Assembly: GCA_016214855.1 (NCBI GenBank)
Contig: JACRMT010000002.1
Coordinates: 124,001-188,000, forward strand
Length of the DNA stretch: 64,000 bases
Direction of reading: 5' to 3'
Source: Nitrospirota bacterium
GTDB lineage: Bacteria; Nitrospirota; Thermodesulfovibrionia; Thermodesulfovibrionales; UBA6898
How positions within the stretch are numbered: the stretch's first letter is position 1; each line of letters starts with the position of its first letter. Positions 51,840-64,000 of the stretch are shown here, one piece after another. A model generated the notes under the pieces. That model was not told where the DNA came from, ran no database searches, and was given only the letters and a program-made list of their open reading frames with translations. Both the position numbers and the translations under genes were made by a program.

Positions 51840-52886
51840 CTATCTCTCTACGATGATGCGCGTAGAGGCTGCCGCATCTCCTTCAGCAAGATCTCCTATA
51901 TATGCGGCGAGGATCTTCTCTTTTTCGAGAGCAGAGATCAGGGCTGCCTTTTTGTCTGCCGGCACAAAGATCAGCAGACCGCCTGAGGTCTGTGCGTCAT
52001 TGATCAGTATCTTCTCAACATCCGGGACCGCTTTTTCATACATGACGTGCTGGCTATAGTTCTTGAAATTCGCCATGGTGCCGCCCGGCACCTTATTCAT
52101 GCCGGCAAGCCTCACTGCCTCTTCGAAAAACGGTACATTGCCGGTATGCAGTGTGGCCCGGCATCTGCTGGCTGTGAGCACCTCGTTAAGATGGCCGATC
52201 AGGCCGAAGCCTGTTATGTCGGTTGCAGTGCTCACGCCGATTTCGATCATGATCTCGCTTGCGCGTTTATTCAGAGCAGCCATCGAGAGGGTGAACTCCT
52301 CGATCACCGCATCGCTGCAGAGGCCTGCCTTGACGCCTGTGGAGATCACGCCGGTGCCGATCTTCTTGGTGAGGACCATGGCGTCTCCGGGCCGTGCCTT
52401 GGTGTTGTCGAGGATCTTGTCAGGATGGACAAGGCCCATGACCGTGTATCCGAACTTCGGCTCCTTGTCACGGATGGTATGGCCTCCGATGATCGAGACG
52501 CCTGCCTCTGTCATCTTGTCGCTTCCGCCCTGCATCACCTTATGCAGGGACGGGAAGAATTCAGGCTGGTTCGGGAACATGGCAAGGTTCAGGCTGACCA
52601 CAGCCCTGCCGCCCATTGCCCATACATCGGAAAGTGAATTTGCTGCAGAGATCGCGCCGAACCAGTATGGGTCGTCAACGATCGGCGTAAAGAAGTCTGT
52701 TGTCAGGACAACGGCGACCTCGTCATTGATTCTGTACACGCCTGCATCGTCTGCATTGTTCGAGCCGACCAGAACATTTTTATCTGTTATTGCTGGCAGC
52801 TGACCCAGAACCTGGGCCAGGTCCGAAGGACTGAATTTTGCCGCTCAACCCGCGCAGCCGGAAAGACTGGTGAGTTTGAGATCCAT
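51840..52886 (-). CDS. selD: Selenide, water dikinase SelD, itself a selenoprotein (Sec14)
   Basis: SelD makes selenophosphate from selenide and ATP, the Se donor for Sec-tRNA and selenouridine. The full frame from ATG 52886 (behind GAGGAGGTGGCGC) is 348 aa with one in-frame TGA at 52845-52847. The N-terminus reads MDLKLTSLSGCAG-U-AAKFSP, the active-site loop in which many SelD proteins have Cys or Sec at exactly this place. Downstream are the family segments VLVGSNNADDAGVYRI and TDFFTPIVDDPYWFGAI. A hairpin at 52808-52824 fits a SECIS element. Annotating only from the next ATG would lose the catalytic loop. It follows a selenocysteine-lyase-like gene by 90 nt. Confidence 0.95.
52808..52824 (-). 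promoter_or_regulatory. Candidate bacterial SECIS element of selD
   Basis: Read on the minus strand, GGACCTG and CAGGTTC form a 7-bp stem (one G-T) with a GCC loop. The loop starts 27 nt after the UGA and its first base is G, as expected of bacterial SECIS hairpins. Confidence 0.7.
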
Positions 52887-56841: not shown

Positions 56842-58047
56842 TTATTCCAATTGACCTGCGATCAATTCCATTATGTCCGTAATCCGAATCTGCTTGTCAT
56901 GTCCCTGCATCGCCTCGTTTACCTGCGCATAGCAGGCAGGGCAGCTGAGGATAAGCCGGTCTGCTTTCTTTGCTACGGCCTCGTCAATCGTCAATCTCCC
57001 CATTGCATTTGCATTCTCCTGAAAAACCTTGCGCGCAGCTCCTCCGGCACCACAGCAGCGCGAGTCGAGGCCGTGACTGTCGAATTCGAGGAGTTCTATG
57101 CCCTTCACACTTCTCAGCACAGCCCTGGGCTCCTCGATCACACCGACTCCTCTGCTCAAATAGCAGGGGTCATGGTAGATCAGACGTTCGTTCAGTTCTT
57201 TCTTCAGCTTCAGCTTTCCATTTTTCAATGCCTCGGTGACAAACTGCGTGATATGCCTGATCTTGAAAGGCAGCTCCTGTCCGTATATTGATGGCCAATC
57301 ACGGGCCATGATATTTACGCATCAGGGACAGGACGTGAGCAGCAGCTTTACCCCCTTTGCCTTGTACCCTTCCACAAGCCTTTTGACCAGGTCTTCAAGC
57401 ATGTCATGCTGACCTGAAATAAACAGAGGGAAGCCGCAGCAGACCTCTTCCTCAGGCCCCAGCATGGTGAAGCGATCGCCGATAGCACTTAGTACGAGAA
57501 CGTCACCCTTTACCATCGGCTGCGCTGAATATGCACCTGTGCAGCCTGCATAATAGGCGATTTCAGCATTTTTCTCGACCTTCACATTATCGGGGAACCA
57601 GGGACTGAATCTCTCTTTGGCCGGCATGTTGTAAGGGTTTCCGGTATTTTTGATCACCTCGGGCATCTTGGCCTGGCCCCCGATAGGGCCGATGCCGCGT
57701 TTGACCATCTCTTTCCTCAGCATAGGCCAGAGACGCTGTGTAAAGATGCCCACAGCACAGTGCTGTCCGCAGGCGCCGCAGGTAGTGCATTCAAATACAG
57801 CCTTTGTGAAATCCTCAAGGAGCCGATTGTCGATCCTGTCCGGTCCCATCAGCTTTGCCTTGAGCCCCTCGGTCGCTTTTATGAACTCCTTGAAAACTCG
57901 GATCTTTTCTGGCGGTGAGATGGCAGGATCGCTTTTGACGTTCTGCACCGGGCAGAACTGCAGGCACTGTCCGCACTGTGTGCAGGCATCCAGCTCGATA
58001 AGCTGCTGAGGGGTGAGGCTATTCGTAAAGCAGTCTTTCGGTTTCAT
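56842..58047 (-). CDS. Fe-S oxidoreductase with two CCG domains, selenoprotein (Sec242 in CPUC)
   Basis: Read through one in-frame TGA (57322-57324) the gene encodes 401 aa, the normal length of GlpC/HdrD-type proteins. Two ferredoxin-type clusters come first (CTQCGQCLQFCP, CTTCGACGQHC). A first CCG domain follows (EVCCGFPLF, ending SCP-U-C) and then a second (SRCCGAGG, ending SCPACYAQV). Sec242 lies inside the CPxC of domain 1, exactly where domain 2 has Ala. No frameshift is needed, and a good SECIS-like hairpin follows the TGA. The ATG overlaps the MMPL stop. Expected role: electron transfer or thiol/disulfide chemistry at the membrane. A plain nonsense mutation is the alternative. Confidence 0.88.
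57291..57309 (-). promoter_or_regulatory. Candidate bacterial SECIS element of the Fe-S oxidoreductase
   Basis: On the minus strand, ATGGCC and GGCCAT form a perfect 6-bp stem with a 7-nt loop (CGTGATT). The loop begins 19 nt after the UGA and has G as its second base. Confidence 0.75.
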
Positions 58048-60341
58048 CTCGACTTAAGCAGCCAGCCCTGCATGAGCGTGATGAGGGCAGGCAGATAGAT
58101 AAGTGTCATTACGGCGCTCAGGAGCATCATGCTCACAATGAACGCGCCGACGGTTATATAAGGCGTGAGCGGCGCGAATATCATCACGGCGAAGGAAGCG
58201 GCAAAAAGGATTGCATTTCGCATGATTCCTTTTCCGGGCCGCGCTGCGGTCCAGAGGAGAGCATCAGACAAAGGCTCTGTTGGAACTTCCTTCAGTCTCT
58301 GCCGCAGTCTGGACACAAAATGGATAGCAAAGTCCACGGCCATACCAAGCGAGAGGCAGGAAAGCACGGATATTGGCATATCAAAGTCTTTCCCAACATA
58401 GCCGACTACGCCGTACAGGAGCAGGACTGTGAAAAGCAGCGGTGCGTACCCTACAATTGCCCATTTCAGAGAGCGGAAATCATAGGCAAGTATGCCGAAG
58501 ACAACCACCAGCGCAAGAATGAACCCCTTTACCATGTCCCCAAGCACCTCGTCATTCCAGACAAGATTGAAATAGGCGATGCCGGCTGGTTTCATCTCCA
58601 TGGAAGTGGGATTGCTCTTCTTGTATTCTTCAACTGCCTTTATAACCTCTCTCATGGCATTGGCATCCCATGTCTTGAGCTGCACCCAAATGTTTGCGCT
58701 CTTAAAGGGATAGTCAACGACATTGTCCAGGTCTGACGGTTTGGCAGACATCGAAAAGAGGAAGATATACTGGCCAATCATCTCTTTTGTCTCCGGCACA
58801 GCATCATACTTAGGGTTATCGTCATGGAGCACGCGGTTTATCCGCTTCACGTAATCAACAACTGACGTTGTCTTGCCGACAACAGGCAGCTTTTCGAGAT
58901 GTTGCTGGAGCCCCTCTATATACCGCATTGCCCCAGGTGTCTTGATGTAATCGTCTTCCTTTGCAATGGCCACTACATAGCCGAGCGATGTGCCGCCGAG
59001 GGCCTTGTTAATTGCCGTATCAGCGACTCTTACATCGCTGTCTTTTTTGAACCACTCTACCAGGTTATTGTTCACGACAATCTTTGACAGTCCGATGACT
59101 GCTATTACAAAGAGGATGAGTCCGACCAGAACAGTCTGCTTTGGATGATGCGCTCCGAATCCGGCGAGACCTCTCAAAAATTCTGAACCCCTGCCTGCAT
59201 CGATATCTTCTGCATGGGCTATTTTCGCCAACTTCTCGTCCTTCACAAAGGTGAACATGGCAGGTATAAAGCTAAAACTGAGAATTCTGAGGGCAATAGT
59301 GCCGAAGGCAACAAGACCGCCAAAGACCTTAACTGGAATGATGTTCATAAAAAGAAGCACGCCAAAGCCTGCTGCTGTTGCAAGTGCGGTGTTCCTCACC
59401 GGGCGGCTTACCGCCTGCATGGTCTCGATGATCGCTCTTTTCTTGTCCTTTGTCTCTCTGTAGCGGAAGTAAAATTCATTGAAGATATGCATGCTGTCTG
59501 TTGCGATCGCCATAAGAAAGACCGGCGCCATGGAACTCATGATATGGATTGGGAAGCCCAGTCCGATGAGGAGTCCCATACTCCAGACAATGCTGATCAT
59601 GGCGTCCATCATCAGCGTGATCGAGAGGAAAAGATCCCTGAACATCAGATATCTGACAATAAGCATGACCATGCCTGCAATAGGTGCGAACAGGGCCATG
59701 AGCTTGAACATATCTGCGCCGAAGGTGTCGCGGGCAACCGGATCACCGGCAACATAGTATTGTTCATCTCCCTTTTCTTTTTTGACAATCTCCCGTATGT
59801 TGTCTGCGATCTCCTTGCCGTTTGAGCCCTTTTCGAGCGGGACATAAATGGCTGTTGTCTTGCCGTCCTTTGAGATGATACGGTTCAGAAAAAGAGGGTT
59901 CTCATACAGCATCTTCCTGAGATATTCGAGCCCCTTTTCATCTTCAGGAGCTTTTGTCATCAAGGGAGCGACCTTTAACGCTGCGTCTTCTACGGTGACA
60001 TTGTCTATGGTCGTAAAACTGGACACATCCCTTGCTGCAACGCCCTTGAGCTTAAGTATTTCATCCGTGATCCTTTGAATCTTTCCGAGTGTTCCTGTGT
60101 TGAGAATGCCTTTTTCGTTCACAATGCCAAGGGCAATCATGTCCTCGTACAGGCTGAAGGTCTTTTCGACCTCATCGTTCCATACCCTCACATCAGACGT
60201 TGCGGGGAGCATGTTCTTCGGATTCGTGTCGGTCCTCATCTTCGGAAACTGCGTCATGAAGGCCATGGTGACGAGTATTGAAAGCACCACAATTAGTTTC
60301 GGATGATTTACCGAAAATTCAACAAGAGAAAACTTTTTCAT
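58044..60341 (-). CDS. MMPL/RND-family exporter
   Basis: The 765-aa membrane protein has about twelve TM helices in two halves, each with a large periplasmic loop, as in RND-superfamily exporters for hydrophobic cargo (hopanoid-type and MMPL proteins). Signatures include SSMAPVFLMAIATDSMHIFN in the first half and LSLGMAVDFAIHFVSRLRQR in the second. Its stop overlaps the Fe-S oxidoreductase start as ATGA. With the LolA-like and barrel proteins it should form a trans-envelope path. The cargo is unknown. Confidence 0.92.
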   Translation of the reverse strand: MKKFSLVEFSVNHPKLIVVLSILVTMAFMTQFPKMRTDTNPKNMLPATSDVRVWNDEVEKTFSLYEDMIALGIVNEKGILNTGTLGKIQRITDEILKLKGVAARDVSSFTTIDNVTVEDAALKVAPLMTKAPEDEKGLEYLRKMLYENPLFLNRIISKDGKTTAIYVPLEKGSNGKEIADNIREIVKKEKGDEQYYVAGDPVARDTFGADMFKLMALFAPIAGMVMLIVRYLMFRDLFLSITLMMDAMISIVWSMGLLIGLGFPIHIMSSMAPVFLMAIATDSMHIFNEFYFRYRETKDKKRAIIETMQAVSRPVRNTALATAAGFGVLLFMNIIPVKVFGGLVAFGTIALRILSFSFIPAMFTFVKDEKLAKIAHAEDIDAGRGSEFLRGLAGFGAHHPKQTVLVGLILFVIAVIGLSKIVVNNNLVEWFKKDSDVRVADTAINKALGGTSLGYVVAIAKEDDYIKTPGAMRYIEGLQQHLEKLPVVGKTTSVVDYVKRINRVLHDDNPKYDAVPETKEMIGQYIFLFSMSAKPSDLDNVVDYPFKSANIWVQLKTWDANAMREVIKAVEEYKKSNPTSMEMKPAGIAYFNLVWNDEVLGDMVKGFILALVVVFGILAYDFRSLKWAIVGYAPLLFTVLLLYGVVGYVGKDFDMPISVLSCLSLGMAVDFAIHFVSRLRQRLKEVPTEPLSDALLWTAARPGKGIMRNAILFAASFAVMIFAPLTPYITVGAFIVSMMLLSAVMTLIYLPALITLMQGWLLKSR

Positions 60342-60392: not shown

Positions 60393-60815
60393 TTAGAAAG
60401 TCAGATTCATGTCTGCCGGAACCATAACTTCTTTGTAGTAGGTCGCTGGATTTGCCAGTTCCACACCCTCCACAAAGTCAGACTTTGACATGCCGAACAG
60501 AGGGACGTTAAGAGGGCAGGCAAGCATCTTTGCCCCTTCTTTATAGAGCATGAAGAGCATCTCCTCGACCGTGGGAAGTTCCATCTCTTCCATTCTCTTC
60601 ATCACAGCCTCACCGATCTCCTCAGGTTGATCAGGCATGCATTTCAGATCCTTCACCTTGTCTTTGTGAATCGCGATGACCCCGCGTGAACCGAAGAAGA
60701 TCGTGACATTAGAGCCCTCCCTCAAGAGGCTCAGAGCAGTCATTGCGGCATTGAATACCTGGCAGAGTTCATCATGGAAGCACATCACTGATACATTTTT
60801 TATTACCTTTGTCAT
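60393..60815 (-). CDS. DsrE2-like sulfur-carrier protein
   Basis: The 140-aa protein matches DsrE/DsrE2-type small proteins (MCFHDELCQVFNAAMTALSL, VTIFFGSRGVIAIHKDKVK), with a candidate persulfide cysteine in ACPLNVPLFGMSKSDF. Family members pass sulfane sulfur between enzymes. It lies between the ArsR regulator and the MMPL exporter, 51 nt from the latter. Confidence 0.85.
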   Translation of the reverse strand: MTKVIKNVSVMCFHDELCQVFNAAMTALSLLREGSNVTIFFGSRGVIAIHKDKVKDLKCMPDQPEEIGEAVMKRMEEMELPTVEEMLFMLYKEGAKMLACPLNVPLFGMSKSDFVEGVELANPATYYKEVMVPADMNLTF

Positions 60816-60836: not shown

Positions 60837-61157
60837 TTATATATGTTCCTGCTGATGCACGGGAGAATTTTCCATAAGCTGTGCCAGGGCATCCTGCATA
60901 AGACTGCATGCCACACTAATATTATTGTTCGCTATTCTGTAATAAATATTAATACCGTCCCTTCTTGTTTTAAGAATCCTCATCTTCCGCATAACTGACA
61001 GATGCTGCGATGTATTGGCCTTTGGGATGCCGAGTTCCTTCGTGATATGGCCGGCAGACAGTTCTCCTGTCTTGAGCAGGTTAATTATCTCAAGCCTCCT
61101 CGAATTGGAAAAGGTTTTGCAAAACTCCGCATGAAAATCTAACACCTCTTTTTTCAT
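60837..61157 (-). CDS. ArsR-family regulator, possible persulfide sensor
   Basis: The 106-aa winged-helix protein has the HTH segment LGIPKANTSQHLSVMRKMRI. It carries two cysteines, C13 in the first helix and C84 near the C-terminal helix. Sulfide-sensing ArsR proteins (SqrR/BigR) also use two cysteines, though at other positions, so reactive-sulfur sensing is inferred. Its ATG overlaps the stop of the SQR-like gene, so it is probably the local regulator. Confidence 0.85.
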   Translation of the reverse strand: MKKEVLDFHAEFCKTFSNSRRLEIINLLKTGELSAGHITKELGIPKANTSQHLSVMRKMRILKTRRDGINIYYRIANNNISVACSLMQDALAQLMENSPVHQQEHI

Positions 61158-62341
61158 GGCAGCCCGCTCAGTCCGTTTTTCATCTTATAGAGAAAGTATT
61201 TCTCAAACCCGACCTTCATCCATTTTGCCCATATGCCTTTTTTTGTAAATGACGACTGGCGCGGAGGGAGTACCGGAGAGGCCTTCATCAGCGCGGCTGT
61301 GTTGCCCATATCCATCAGGCAGACAACACTCAATTCGTCCATGGCTGGCGGCGGTGTGCCTTTAATATCAGAATAGATCGTGGCAGCCGCTGTCTTTGCC
61401 ATCTTTACGGTCATGAAGCCTGTCTTTGGAACGCCGGTAGGTACGGGAGTAACCTCAGGAGGCGCTATCGCCATAGTCACGCCGATGGCAAAGATATTCT
61501 TGTGTTTGGTATGCCTGTAGTTCTTGTCAACAGGGATAAAGCCCCTCGGGTTGCCTAAGGGTGCAACAGCAGGCACGCCTTTGAATGGCGGGGCTATCAT
61601 GGCGAGTTTAAAAGGTATCTTTGTCCCGTCTTTCAGCTTTATCTCACCAGGCGTCACTTCTTCAATAGCCTGGCTCACAACTGATTTGATGTCCCTGTCT
61701 GCGAACTCGTCTTCCATGAAGCGCTTCGAGTTTCCAAGCCCTCCGACACCCATATGGCCGAGATACGGTTCAGACGTGAGATAGATGATCGGCACCTTAT
61801 GCCGCATCTTCCTCCTTTTCAGTTCATCATGCATCTCAAAGGCAAGCTCATAGGTGGGGCCAAAGCAGCTGACCATCTGGGAAGATCCGACAACAACAGG
61901 TCCAGGGTCTTCGAGAATCTTCTTCCATGTCTGGCCTGTCCTGACAGCGTGATCGAGGGTGAAGGTGCAGTCAGTGTATCCCTTGTCAGGGCCAAGACCG
62001 GGTATCTCATCAAATGAAAGATGAGGCCCTGTTGAGATGACGAGGTGATCGTATGAGAACTCTCTTGTTGCAGTCTTGACCTTCGATGTCTCAGGATCTA
62101 CCCCTATCGCGGCTTCATGGATGAACTGGATTCCCTTTGATTTAAGTATTTCACTGACATTCAGTGTGATATCCTCAGGCCCTCTCCAGCCCATGATCAG
62201 CCATGGGAGCGAAGGCAGAAATACGAATCGGTTATCTTCGCTGATAACCGTAACCTCTGCCTGCGAGCCTAACAGCCTTTTTATCTCAAAGGCTGCTGTA
62301 AGCCCTCCGAACGAGCCTCCTAAAATTACTATTCTTGCCAT
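61154..62341 (-). CDS. Sulfide:quinone oxidoreductase-like flavoprotein
   Basis: The 395-aa FAD protein starts with MARIVILGGSFGGLTAAFE and has the second FAD motif FAIGVTMAIAPPEVTPVPTG. Cysteines at family-like positions are in GYTDCTFTLDH, SSQMVSCFGPTYE and VVCLMDMGN. The C-terminal amphipathic segment (WMKVGFEKYFLYKMKNG) suits peripheral membrane binding. SQR oxidises sulfide to sulfane sulfur and passes electrons to quinone, supplying the Dsr/Tus carriers next to it. I chose ATG 62341 behind GGGGGAG; a frame 12 codons longer overlaps the upstream gene. Confidence 0.87.
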   Translation of the reverse strand: MARIVILGGSFGGLTAAFEIKRLLGSQAEVTVISEDNRFVFLPSLPWLIMGWRGPEDITLNVSEILKSKGIQFIHEAAIGVDPETSKVKTATREFSYDHLVISTGPHLSFDEIPGLGPDKGYTDCTFTLDHAVRTGQTWKKILEDPGPVVVGSSQMVSCFGPTYELAFEMHDELKRRKMRHKVPIIYLTSEPYLGHMGVGGLGNSKRFMEDEFADRDIKSVVSQAIEEVTPGEIKLKDGTKIPFKLAMIAPPFKGVPAVAPLGNPRGFIPVDKNYRHTKHKNIFAIGVTMAIAPPEVTPVPTGVPKTGFMTVKMAKTAAATIYSDIKGTPPPAMDELSVVCLMDMGNTAALMKASPVLPPRQSSFTKKGIWAKWMKVGFEKYFLYKMKNGLSGLP

Positions 62342-62363: not shown

Positions 62364-62651
62364 TTAGAACATGCCAACTACGTTATTGCTTTCCGTCATC
62401 AAATCCACAAGCCCATCATAGGTAATCTCTTTTGCGCGCCGGTCCGACTCAATTGAATTCAGTCCGCGGAGTTTGCGATCATCTGAAAGCACATATGCAG
62501 TCCCGCAAAAACCCAGGTCTTCAAGGTGTTCCTGCTGTATAAAATAGACCCCGTTTTGCAAGAGTACTACGTCAGCGGCCAAGTCTCTGGCCATTTTAAC
62601 ACCCCTTCTCCCATCTACTGTGTCTGGTGCGCTTCTTACTATTACAAGCAT
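62364..62651 (-). CDS. DsrH/TusB-like small protein
   Basis: The 95-aa protein resembles DsrH/TusB proteins (MLVIVRSAPDTVDGRRGVKM, then ADVVLLQNGVYFIQQE). TusB-type proteins sit in the TusBCD sulfur relay. The only cysteine is in LGFCGTAYVL. A good AAAGGAGAA precedes the start; it is followed by the SQR gene after 22 nt. Confidence 0.8.
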   Translation of the reverse strand: MLVIVRSAPDTVDGRRGVKMARDLAADVVLLQNGVYFIQQEHLEDLGFCGTAYVLSDDRKLRGLNSIESDRRAKEITYDGLVDLMTESNNVVGMF

Positions 62652-62683: not shown

Positions 62684-63037
62684 TCAAAAGATCATTGTTT
62701 GGTCAGCTTCTTTTAACAGAGAGGCTATATCTGATTCGTTTTTGACCTGCACGCCTGCAGGAAGCTCTTCTTCTTTTACTGACTGTAACGCCAGTGAAAG
62801 ATAATCAGCATACACATCCACGCCCATATCAACACAGTCCTTCAATGTGGACTCCAGATTTGTAAAACCGGTCCCTGTATCGTCCTGCCCCTTTTTGGCA
62901 AGGAGCACGCCTCCGTCAACCAATATGAGCGACACTTTCCAGTCGCCCGACGCCGCACCCAGCGCATGTCTGACAGCTTCTGCTGCATTAATATCGCCAT
63001 ACGGCGGTTTTCTGAGTATCATTGCTATATGTCCCAT
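62684..63037 (-). CDS. DsrE/DsrF (TusC/TusD)-like protein
   Basis: The 117-aa protein has the DsrE/F fold signature (MGHIAMILRKPPYGDINAAE, KVSLILVDGGVLLAKKG) with a single cysteine in LKDCVDMGVDVYAD. It likely receives persulfide sulfur. It is flanked by the DsrE selenoprotein (9 nt upstream) and the TusB-like gene (32 nt downstream), giving a TusBCD-like trio. Confidence 0.85.
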   Translation of the reverse strand: MGHIAMILRKPPYGDINAAEAVRHALGAASGDWKVSLILVDGGVLLAKKGQDDTGTGFTNLESTLKDCVDMGVDVYADYLSLALQSVKEEELPAGVQVKNESDIASLLKEADQTMIF

Positions 63038-63046
63038 GGTATCCTC

Positions 63047-63403
63047 CTATGCACCGATATTAAGCCAGACGTCACTTTCACCCAGGGTCTTAAACAACCC
63101 TTTGAGCGATCCGACCTCTGCACCTTCAAGATAATTGTCTTTCGCCGCACGGCGATAGTTTACACAGCCGCCTCAAAGGAAGACCTTGAGTCCCTTCTGA
63201 ATAAGTCGCGTAAACTCTTCCTCAGCATTTGTAATCCCCTTCGCCTTTTGAGCTTTCAAAAAGCAGTAGACTCCATCTGCCGAAGCGATGAGGTTAACGG
63301 TGTTTCCCTTTGCCAGCGCAGAGTCTGCAAGTCGCACTGTTGTGAGTGTGTTTTCATAAGAGTACGGTGATGTCGAGAGGTACAGCGTCATCGTTTTGCC
63401 CAT
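63047..63403 (-). CDS. DsrE-like selenoprotein (Sec77 in UGGC)
   Basis: Reading through the TGA at 63173-63175 gives 118 aa, the usual DsrE length. The N-terminal part (MTLYLSTSPYSYENTLTTVR, NLIASADGVYCF) and the section after the TGA fit one continuous DsrE protein. The Sec replaces the catalytic cysteine in KVFL-U-GGC-VNYRRA (family pattern like VFLCGxC). C80 is three residues on, so U-x-x-C could cycle between selenol and selenenylsulfide. A SECIS-like hairpin lies at 63142-63155. It is 12 nt downstream of the thioredoxin-like selenoprotein. Stopping at the TGA would remove the active site. Confidence 0.9.
63142..63155 (-). promoter_or_regulatory. Candidate bacterial SECIS element of the DsrE-like gene
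   Basis: TCGCC and GGCGA form a perfect 5-bp stem with a GTGC loop on the minus strand. The loop begins 23 nt after the UGA and its first base is G. Confidence 0.72.
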
Positions 63404-63415
63404 TTGTTTCCTCCT

Positions 63416-63679
63416 TTATGGCAGATGGGTTCTGCCCATCTCCTGAATGATCGCGGACTTCAGCTCCGCAATAGATACATCCTGACCCTTGAATACAATA
63501 GTGTCGTTGATCGCAAGCGAAGGAAATATATTTAAAGCTCTTCGGCTCAAGAAAGACATCTCCGATTTACTGATAATTTCAACATCGAAGGTATAGTTTC
63601 GGGAAAGTTCCATGACCACGGAATGGACATTCGTTCACCGGTTCCCGGGAGGACTGTTGAAATATAATGTGATCAGCAT
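63416..63679 (-). CDS. Thioredoxin-like selenoprotein without cysteine (Sec15)
   Basis: The frame from ATG 63679 (behind AAAGGATAA) reads MLITLYFNSPPGNR-U-TNVHSVV and runs 87 aa after reading through TGA 63635-63637. The fold pattern is thioredoxin-like: strand, active-site turn, helix, strand EIISKS and the cis-Pro-like NIFPSLAINDTIVFKGQ. Sec takes the place of an active-site cysteine (G-N-R-U instead of CxxC), and the protein has no cysteine at all, so chemistry would rest on one selenol. The next gene upstream encodes a paralogue fragment with the same PSIAIND segment. A SECIS-like hairpin with a GGTC loop follows the UGA. A GTG at 63619 gives a shortened product that misses the active site. 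Confidence 0.88.
63608..63623 (-). promoter_or_regulatory. Candidate bacterial SECIS element of the thioredoxin-like gene
   Basis: TTCCGT and ATGGAA form a 6-bp stem (one G-T) around a GGTC loop on the minus strand, similar to the GGUC apical loop of the classic E. coli fdhF element. The loop starts 18 nt after the UGA. Confidence 0.78.
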
Positions 63680-63699
63680 AGCGTGTTATCCTTTCATCC

Positions 63700-63856
63700 C
63701 TAATGACCTGTGATTATCTGATACCCATCCGCAGCCACGGTTATCGCTATGATCACGGCGATCGCAGACTTGAGGTATAAGGAGCAGGGGGATAAAGATG
63801 GCTCCGCCCAGACCAAGAAGCAGAAGAGCGACAAGGAAAGGGATGTCCATGATCAT
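63700..63856 (-). pseudogene. TauE/SafE remnant (start and end fused out of frame)
   Basis: From an ATG that overlaps the previous stop (ATGA, 63856) the frame reads like a TauE/SafE start (FLVALLLLGLGGAIFIPLLL). After about 26 codons that frame becomes non-family. A neighbouring frame gives a TauE-type C-terminus (YLKSAIAVIIAITVAADGYQ) ending at a TAG (63700-63702). The whole middle of the roughly 250-aa protein is missing. It looks like an internal deletion with frameshift, or an assembly collapse. A genuine 56-aa membrane peptide ending at 63686 is the alternative. Confidence 0.5.
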
Positions 63857-64000
63857 CCCGCGTTGAGAAGAGCGGTCTTCAGGTTTTCATAAGTGCTTAC
63901 GCCGTCGCTTACGATGATCAGGTCATTAATTGCTATGGACGGGCAGGCCGGAGGCTTGCTCTCTGACTGGTACTCCCGGGAGGTTTTGCTGATAATAATT
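63853..64000 (-). CDS. Thioredoxin-like protein, C-terminal fragment
   Basis: The gene runs off the right edge. The visible 48 residues (IIISKTSREYQSES, PPACPSIAINDLIIVSDG, ENLKTALLNAG) align with the C-terminal half of the thioredoxin-like selenoprotein, including the cis-Pro-like segment. The active-site half lies outside the window, so whether it uses Sec or Cys cannot be told. Its TGA overlaps the ATG of the TauE remnant. Confidence 0.7.
   Translation of the reverse strand, partial: IIISKTSREYQSESKPPACPSIAINDLIIVSDGVSTYENLKTALLNAG

Follow-up and report, generated by a model that had tools for sequence, protein, structure and literature searches.

The window, the whole 64,000-nt stretch of DNA that was analysed, carries on its minus strand a DsrE/DsrF-family gene, dsrE(U), whose product is probably the DsrE component of a sulfurtransferase of the DsrEFH type, with selenocysteine (Sec) replacing the sulfur-binding cysteine. 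Judged from sequence comparison, insertion of Sec at the in-frame UGA is near certain. The first-pass annotation, which gave 63047–63403 without a strand, had placed the TGA exactly at the active cysteine of the family with DsrE-like sequence on both sides, and both parts hold: the column aligns to Allochromatium DsrE Cys78, onto which the cysteine of a Cys orthologue also aligns, and the Pfam DsrE match (residues 6–113, E 7e-15) runs across codon 77.

63047–63403, minus strand: dsrE(U), a DsrE/DsrF-family selenoprotein of 118 aa with Sec77 in the motif UGGC; translation MGKTMTLYLSTSPYSYENTLTTVRLADSALAKGNTVNLIASADGVYCFLKAQKAKGITNAEEEFTRLIQKGLKVFLUGGCVNYRRAAKDNYLEGAEVGSLKGLFKTLGESDVWLNIGA
63173–63175, minus strand: in-frame TGA, Sec codon 77, in the column of DsrE Cys78
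63164–63166, minus strand: codon of Cys80, the invariant partner of Sec77 (UxxC)
63142–63155, minus strand: SECIS-type hairpin TCGCC[GTGC]GGCGA, loop starting 22 nt past the UGA
63410–63415, minus strand: ribosome-binding site AGGAGG, 5′ of the dsrE(U) ATG

The protein scores 55.6 bits against PF02635 (gathering score 22.7), which assigns it to the DsrE/DsrF family, and this domain together with UxxC is what defines the known DsrE-like selenoproteins. Its AlphaFold model (pLDDT 87.8) matches the folds of YchN, DsrEFH and TusBCD; PPR repeat matches in the same structure search were set aside as chance. Under the standard code, gene calling stops the protein at residue 76.

Judged by its relatives, the genome is a Nitrospirota member of the Thermodesulfovibrionia type, and the TGA is fixed throughout this class. 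Among 230 Thermodesulfovibrionia genomes, 107 contain a dsrE(U) orthologue, in 113 copies, all of which have exactly one TGA (113/113) and none a Cys (0/113); the further DsrE proteins of these genomes are far more distant. Likewise, the genome itself and 60 near relatives gave 39 full matches, each with one TGA at the codon 77 position. A search across the Nitrospirota phylum returned four strong stop-free orthologues, all with CGTC, and two more Cys orthologues come from an archaeal MAG (L089, CGPC) and from Mesoaciditoga (L113, CGIC). The alignment with Cys-bearing homologues that had been suggested beforehand thus puts Cys at the Sec column, and the Cys/Sec exchange is confined to that one column; the cysteine annotated three residues past Sec is present as Cys80 and is invariant. 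Neither homologues lacking both Cys and Sec at this column nor a correction of the TGA to TGC or TGT, the two refuting outcomes named in advance, was found. In a tree the Sec rows of this subfamily cluster together, as do the four Nitrospirota Cys rows among themselves; the tree gives no direction to the Cys/Sec change, and long branches meet at the Cys side. Downstream of the TGA, third-position changes dominate in the same way as upstream, and TGA also serves as the terminal stop of dsrE(U) in several relatives, which rules out its global reassignment. A search of plasmids yielded distant DsrE proteins only, mostly haloarchaeal.

Related forms were seen alongside. A UTGC subfamily of the selenoprotein (L092–L112) has a shorter loop ahead of Sec, and some genomes contain both subfamilies. 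A second, distant DsrE selenoprotein subfamily, with UGTC (VFAUGTCLKARG), occurs in another Nitrospirota family (L123–L125) and has a strong hairpin, CAAGGCCC[GTG]GGGTCTTG.

Bacterial SECIS elements place their loop 16–37 nt past the UGA. The 5-bp hairpin with a GTGC loop that had been annotated at SECIS distance was recovered at 63155–63142, with a G opening the loop and a distance inside this range, and in the relatives the loop likewise starts about 22 nt 3′ of the TGA with G first, as in CTTCCGTT[GTAT]AACGGAAG (L127) and ACCCGCG[GTCT]TGCGGGT (L104). Stem length in 76 Sec genes was 6.0, against 3.35 in peptide-preserving synonymous recodings; the Cys genes gave 2.5 against 3.2, indicating that they lack the hairpin. 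For the window gene alone, recoding the peptide synonymously gave a stem as long in 1% of cases. Over 71 distinct sequences, 70 of which have the loop-opening G, 84.7% of cells were paired compared with 72.7% after shuffling (0/2000), a test inflated by sequence relatedness, such that the Cys genes and the slid versions of the alignment (40–54% paired) weigh more as controls. By plain free energy, the 43 nt past the UGA in the window are unremarkable (z 0.20); stem geometry and covariation were used in its place. When these 43 nt were folded alone another pairing was slightly preferred, with the SECIS hairpin as the centroid, and for a shorter stretch past the UGA it is the optimum fold. Rfam gave no match at the gathering threshold around dsrE(U), and a freshwater-2 match (E 0.13) was taken as chance.

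The genome encodes tRNA-Sec (70.9 bits) and SelB (375 bits), and selD lies within the window:

51840–52886, minus strand: selD, with its own in-frame TGA (Sec codon 52845–52847, GCAGUAAK)

In 12 genomes of the class SelB was found at background level only, and dsrE(U) occurs in 1 of these 12 versus 106 of the 218 others (Fisher p 0.006); the sole exception is a fragmented genome that contains a C-terminal piece of SelB. With the Cys orthologues, the Cys78 alignment, the covarying hairpin, the Sec machinery and the invariant Cys at +3, the original proposal that Sec replaces the persulfide cysteine is supported. selD is about 10 kb from dsrE(U), and a cysteine desulfurase gene adjoins it.

dsrE(U) is the leading gene of a conserved operon with dsrF, dsrH and an SQR-like gene; the genes around it in the window are:

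63853–64000, minus strand: second TsoC-like selenoprotein gene, 3′ part only (39.2 bits, under the cut-off of 45)
63416–63679, minus strand: TsoC-type thioredoxin-like selenoprotein (Sec codon 63635–63637; NF045708, 54.3 bits, cut-off 45)
62684–63037, minus strand: dsrF-like (TusC) gene (TIGR03010, 1.4e-10, under the cut-off), a neighbour in about 70 loci
62364–62651, minus strand: dsrH-like (TusB) gene (Pfam DsrH, 3e-8)
61154–62341, minus strand: SQR-like FAD oxidoreductase (profile matches), a conserved neighbour
60837–61157, minus strand: ArsR/SmtB-type regulator (NF033788, above the cut-off)
60393–60815, minus strand: DsrE2-like protein (Pfam DrsE_2, 5e-13) with four invariant Cys
58044–60341, minus strand: MMPL/RND-family transporter, a conserved neighbour

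The order ArsR, (TsoC), dsrE(U), dsrF, dsrH, SQR-like flavoprotein recurs in about 70 loci, and nearly every locus long enough to include them has dsrF, dsrH and the SQR-like gene behind dsrE(U); 3′ of the SQR-like gene there are often ArsR, DsrE2, the MMPL transporter, and LolA-like and porin-like proteins. The two TsoC-type genes directly 5′ of dsrE(U) have the Sec contexts NSPPGNRU and NDPMGKRU, with the TGA kept in related loci; the start of the second (64107) and its Sec codon (64054–64056) both lie outside the window. Across 61 homologues of the SQR-like flavoprotein, Cys 125 is conserved in 52, Cys 159 in 60 and Cys 341 in 60, and these may be compared with the three SQR cysteines. Sulfur importers accompany Cys loci and one Sec locus: YeeE and TusA in L089, Sulf_transp (YeeE) and rhodanese in L119, and Sulf_transp (YeeE) and TauE in L126. 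Co-occurrence with dsrA is uninformative, dsrA being nearly universal in the class. Taken as a whole, the operon looks dedicated to sulfide handling.

In Allochromatium, DsrE Cys78 binds sulfur and hands it to DsrC (PMC3397948), and DsrEFH type II of cable bacteria, Nitrospirota and archaea acts through Cys67, which is 99.3% conserved (PMC13293266, 2026). The present locus has dsrE, dsrF and dsrH in one cluster, as type II does, and resembles that type in a cluster that is unlike type I and abundant in Nitrospirota, with yeeE or tusA beside related loci. It differs in its SQR-like, ArsR and TsoC neighbours and in having Sec where type II conserves the active Cys, with Cys found only in orthologues outside the class. 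DsrEFH type I and TusBCD share the fold and the position of the active residue with dsrE(U), but have a lone Cys without CxxC; the equivalent of Cys80 is Ala in Allochromatium DsrE and E. coli TusD. The resolving Cys is a feature of the YchN-like branch. E. coli YchN (1jx7) is the best solved match in both sequence and fold and has CxxC at the same place, with Cys where dsrE(U) has Sec. The operon also resembles the three-selenoprotein Tso operon (TsoA, TsoB, TsoC) in the TsoC-type genes adjoining dsrE(U). It differs in that the scanned neighbours matched TsoC-type profiles only, with no match to TsoA or TsoB, and in that the accessible part of the Tso description does not count a DsrE selenoprotein among its proteins.

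The comparative evidence shows that SelB and tRNA-Sec decode the UGA of codon 77 as Sec, with help from the hairpin just 3′ of it. We propose that the protein most likely joins DsrF and DsrH. Its selenol would take up sulfane sulfur as Sec-Se-S−, donated by the neighbouring SQR-like flavoprotein or by some partner protein, and would pass it onward, for example to DsrC; Cys80 could release the sulfur by displacement or, by forming a Se-S bond, return the site to its starting state. We infer the sulfur-carrier role of Sec77, the resolving role of Cys80 and the SQR-like protein as sulfur source, and such a selenol carrier with a resolving Cys, as first suggested, fits the operon. A sulfur-relay function is supported by the Cys78 column, the fold match, the linkage to dsrF, dsrH and the SQR-like gene, the three cysteines of the SQR-like protein and the loci with YeeE, TusA or rhodanese. 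The sulfurtransferase assignment is weakened because the DsrEFH type I/TusD models score far under their cut-offs (TIGR03012, 14.6 bits against 89.25), because UxxC, which type I DsrE and TusD lack, could point to a redox function instead of sulfur carriage, and because no yeeE or tusA was seen beside the cluster in the window locus, where ArsR and TsoC would also suit a response to metals or metalloids.

It is rather unlikely that UxxC instead acts as a thiol-disulfide or persulfide reductase, freeing sulfide from bound sulfane sulfur, with Sec serving speed and resistance to over-oxidation. UxxC is the classical redox selenoprotein motif, under which DsrE-like UxxC proteins are classed in the available portion of PMC1088965, Cys80 is invariant and two thioredoxin-like TsoC selenoproteins adjoin the gene, but the close linkage to dsrF and dsrH and the identity of the Sec column with the sulfur-transfer Cys78 point to a relay. 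Quite improbable is a role in selenium or metal(loid) handling, with the complex carrying Se for SelD or binding toxic metals under ArsR control: ArsR genes lie upstream of and within the operon, selD occurs in some dsrE(U) loci, and the selenium-linked YedF also has a DsrE-like CGxC domain (PMC5322559), but selD is nearby in few loci only, the Cys orthologues adjoin sulfur transport genes and the neighbour here is SQR-like. That there is no selenoprotein at all, through sequencing error, a pseudogene or a true stop yielding a 76-aa protein, has a negligible probability, for although the standard code stops at the TGA and one relative is frameshifted, conservation rules out error and pseudogene, with the same TGA in >100 independent assemblies, coding constraint and a conserved hairpin past it, and TGA not globally reassigned but ending the same gene in several relatives. 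The frameshift of that relative (L091:4218–4563) lies just past the TGA and reflects either assembly error or decay.

As a kind, the protein is already known: catalogues have listed DsrE-like UxxC selenoproteins since 2005 (PMC1088965, PMC1794560 and PMC13188914, as far as the accessible text of these sources goes), including PF02635 members from the Sargasso Sea (2005) and Desulfovibrio vulgaris and WP_014524487.1, which share the DsrE domain and Sec in UxxC with dsrE(U). The accessible text reports no operon role for them, whereas dsrE(U) has a conserved operon. A DsrEFH complex that has Sec as its transfer residue, fixed class-wide, appears not to have been described; a search of the open-access literature, partly by titles, found no reports of Sec in DsrEFH, TusD or DsrE plus DsrF. 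The DsrEFH type II survey published in May 2026 does not mention Sec and may have missed TGA-cut forms, because it drew on annotated proteins and HMM cut-offs (PMC13293266). Since standard gene calling cuts the dsrE(U) protein at residue 76, Thermodesulfovibrionia may be under-counted in DsrEFH surveys that rely on it. The complete picture, a class-wide selenol Se-S relay in DsrEFH that draws sulfur from sulfide:quinone oxidoreductase and was missed by surveys through TGA-cut annotation, we hold tentatively, at slightly short of even chances. If the role is true, selenium chemistry would carry sulfur, beyond redox catalysis, in underground and sediment sulfur-cycling bacteria, and the family offers a natural set of Sec/Cys pairs for testing why Sec persists.

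Two further minus-strand regions of the window stood out. At 63686–63862, a short membrane ORF looks like a decayed TauE/SafE gene when compared by eye with the TauE of L126, with a deletion between two GLGG repeats followed by a frameshift. At 56842–58047, two adjoining Fer4/CCG ORFs jointly look like a single TfrB/HdrB-type iron-sulfur protein that has been divided, an arrangement that is kept in some relatives.
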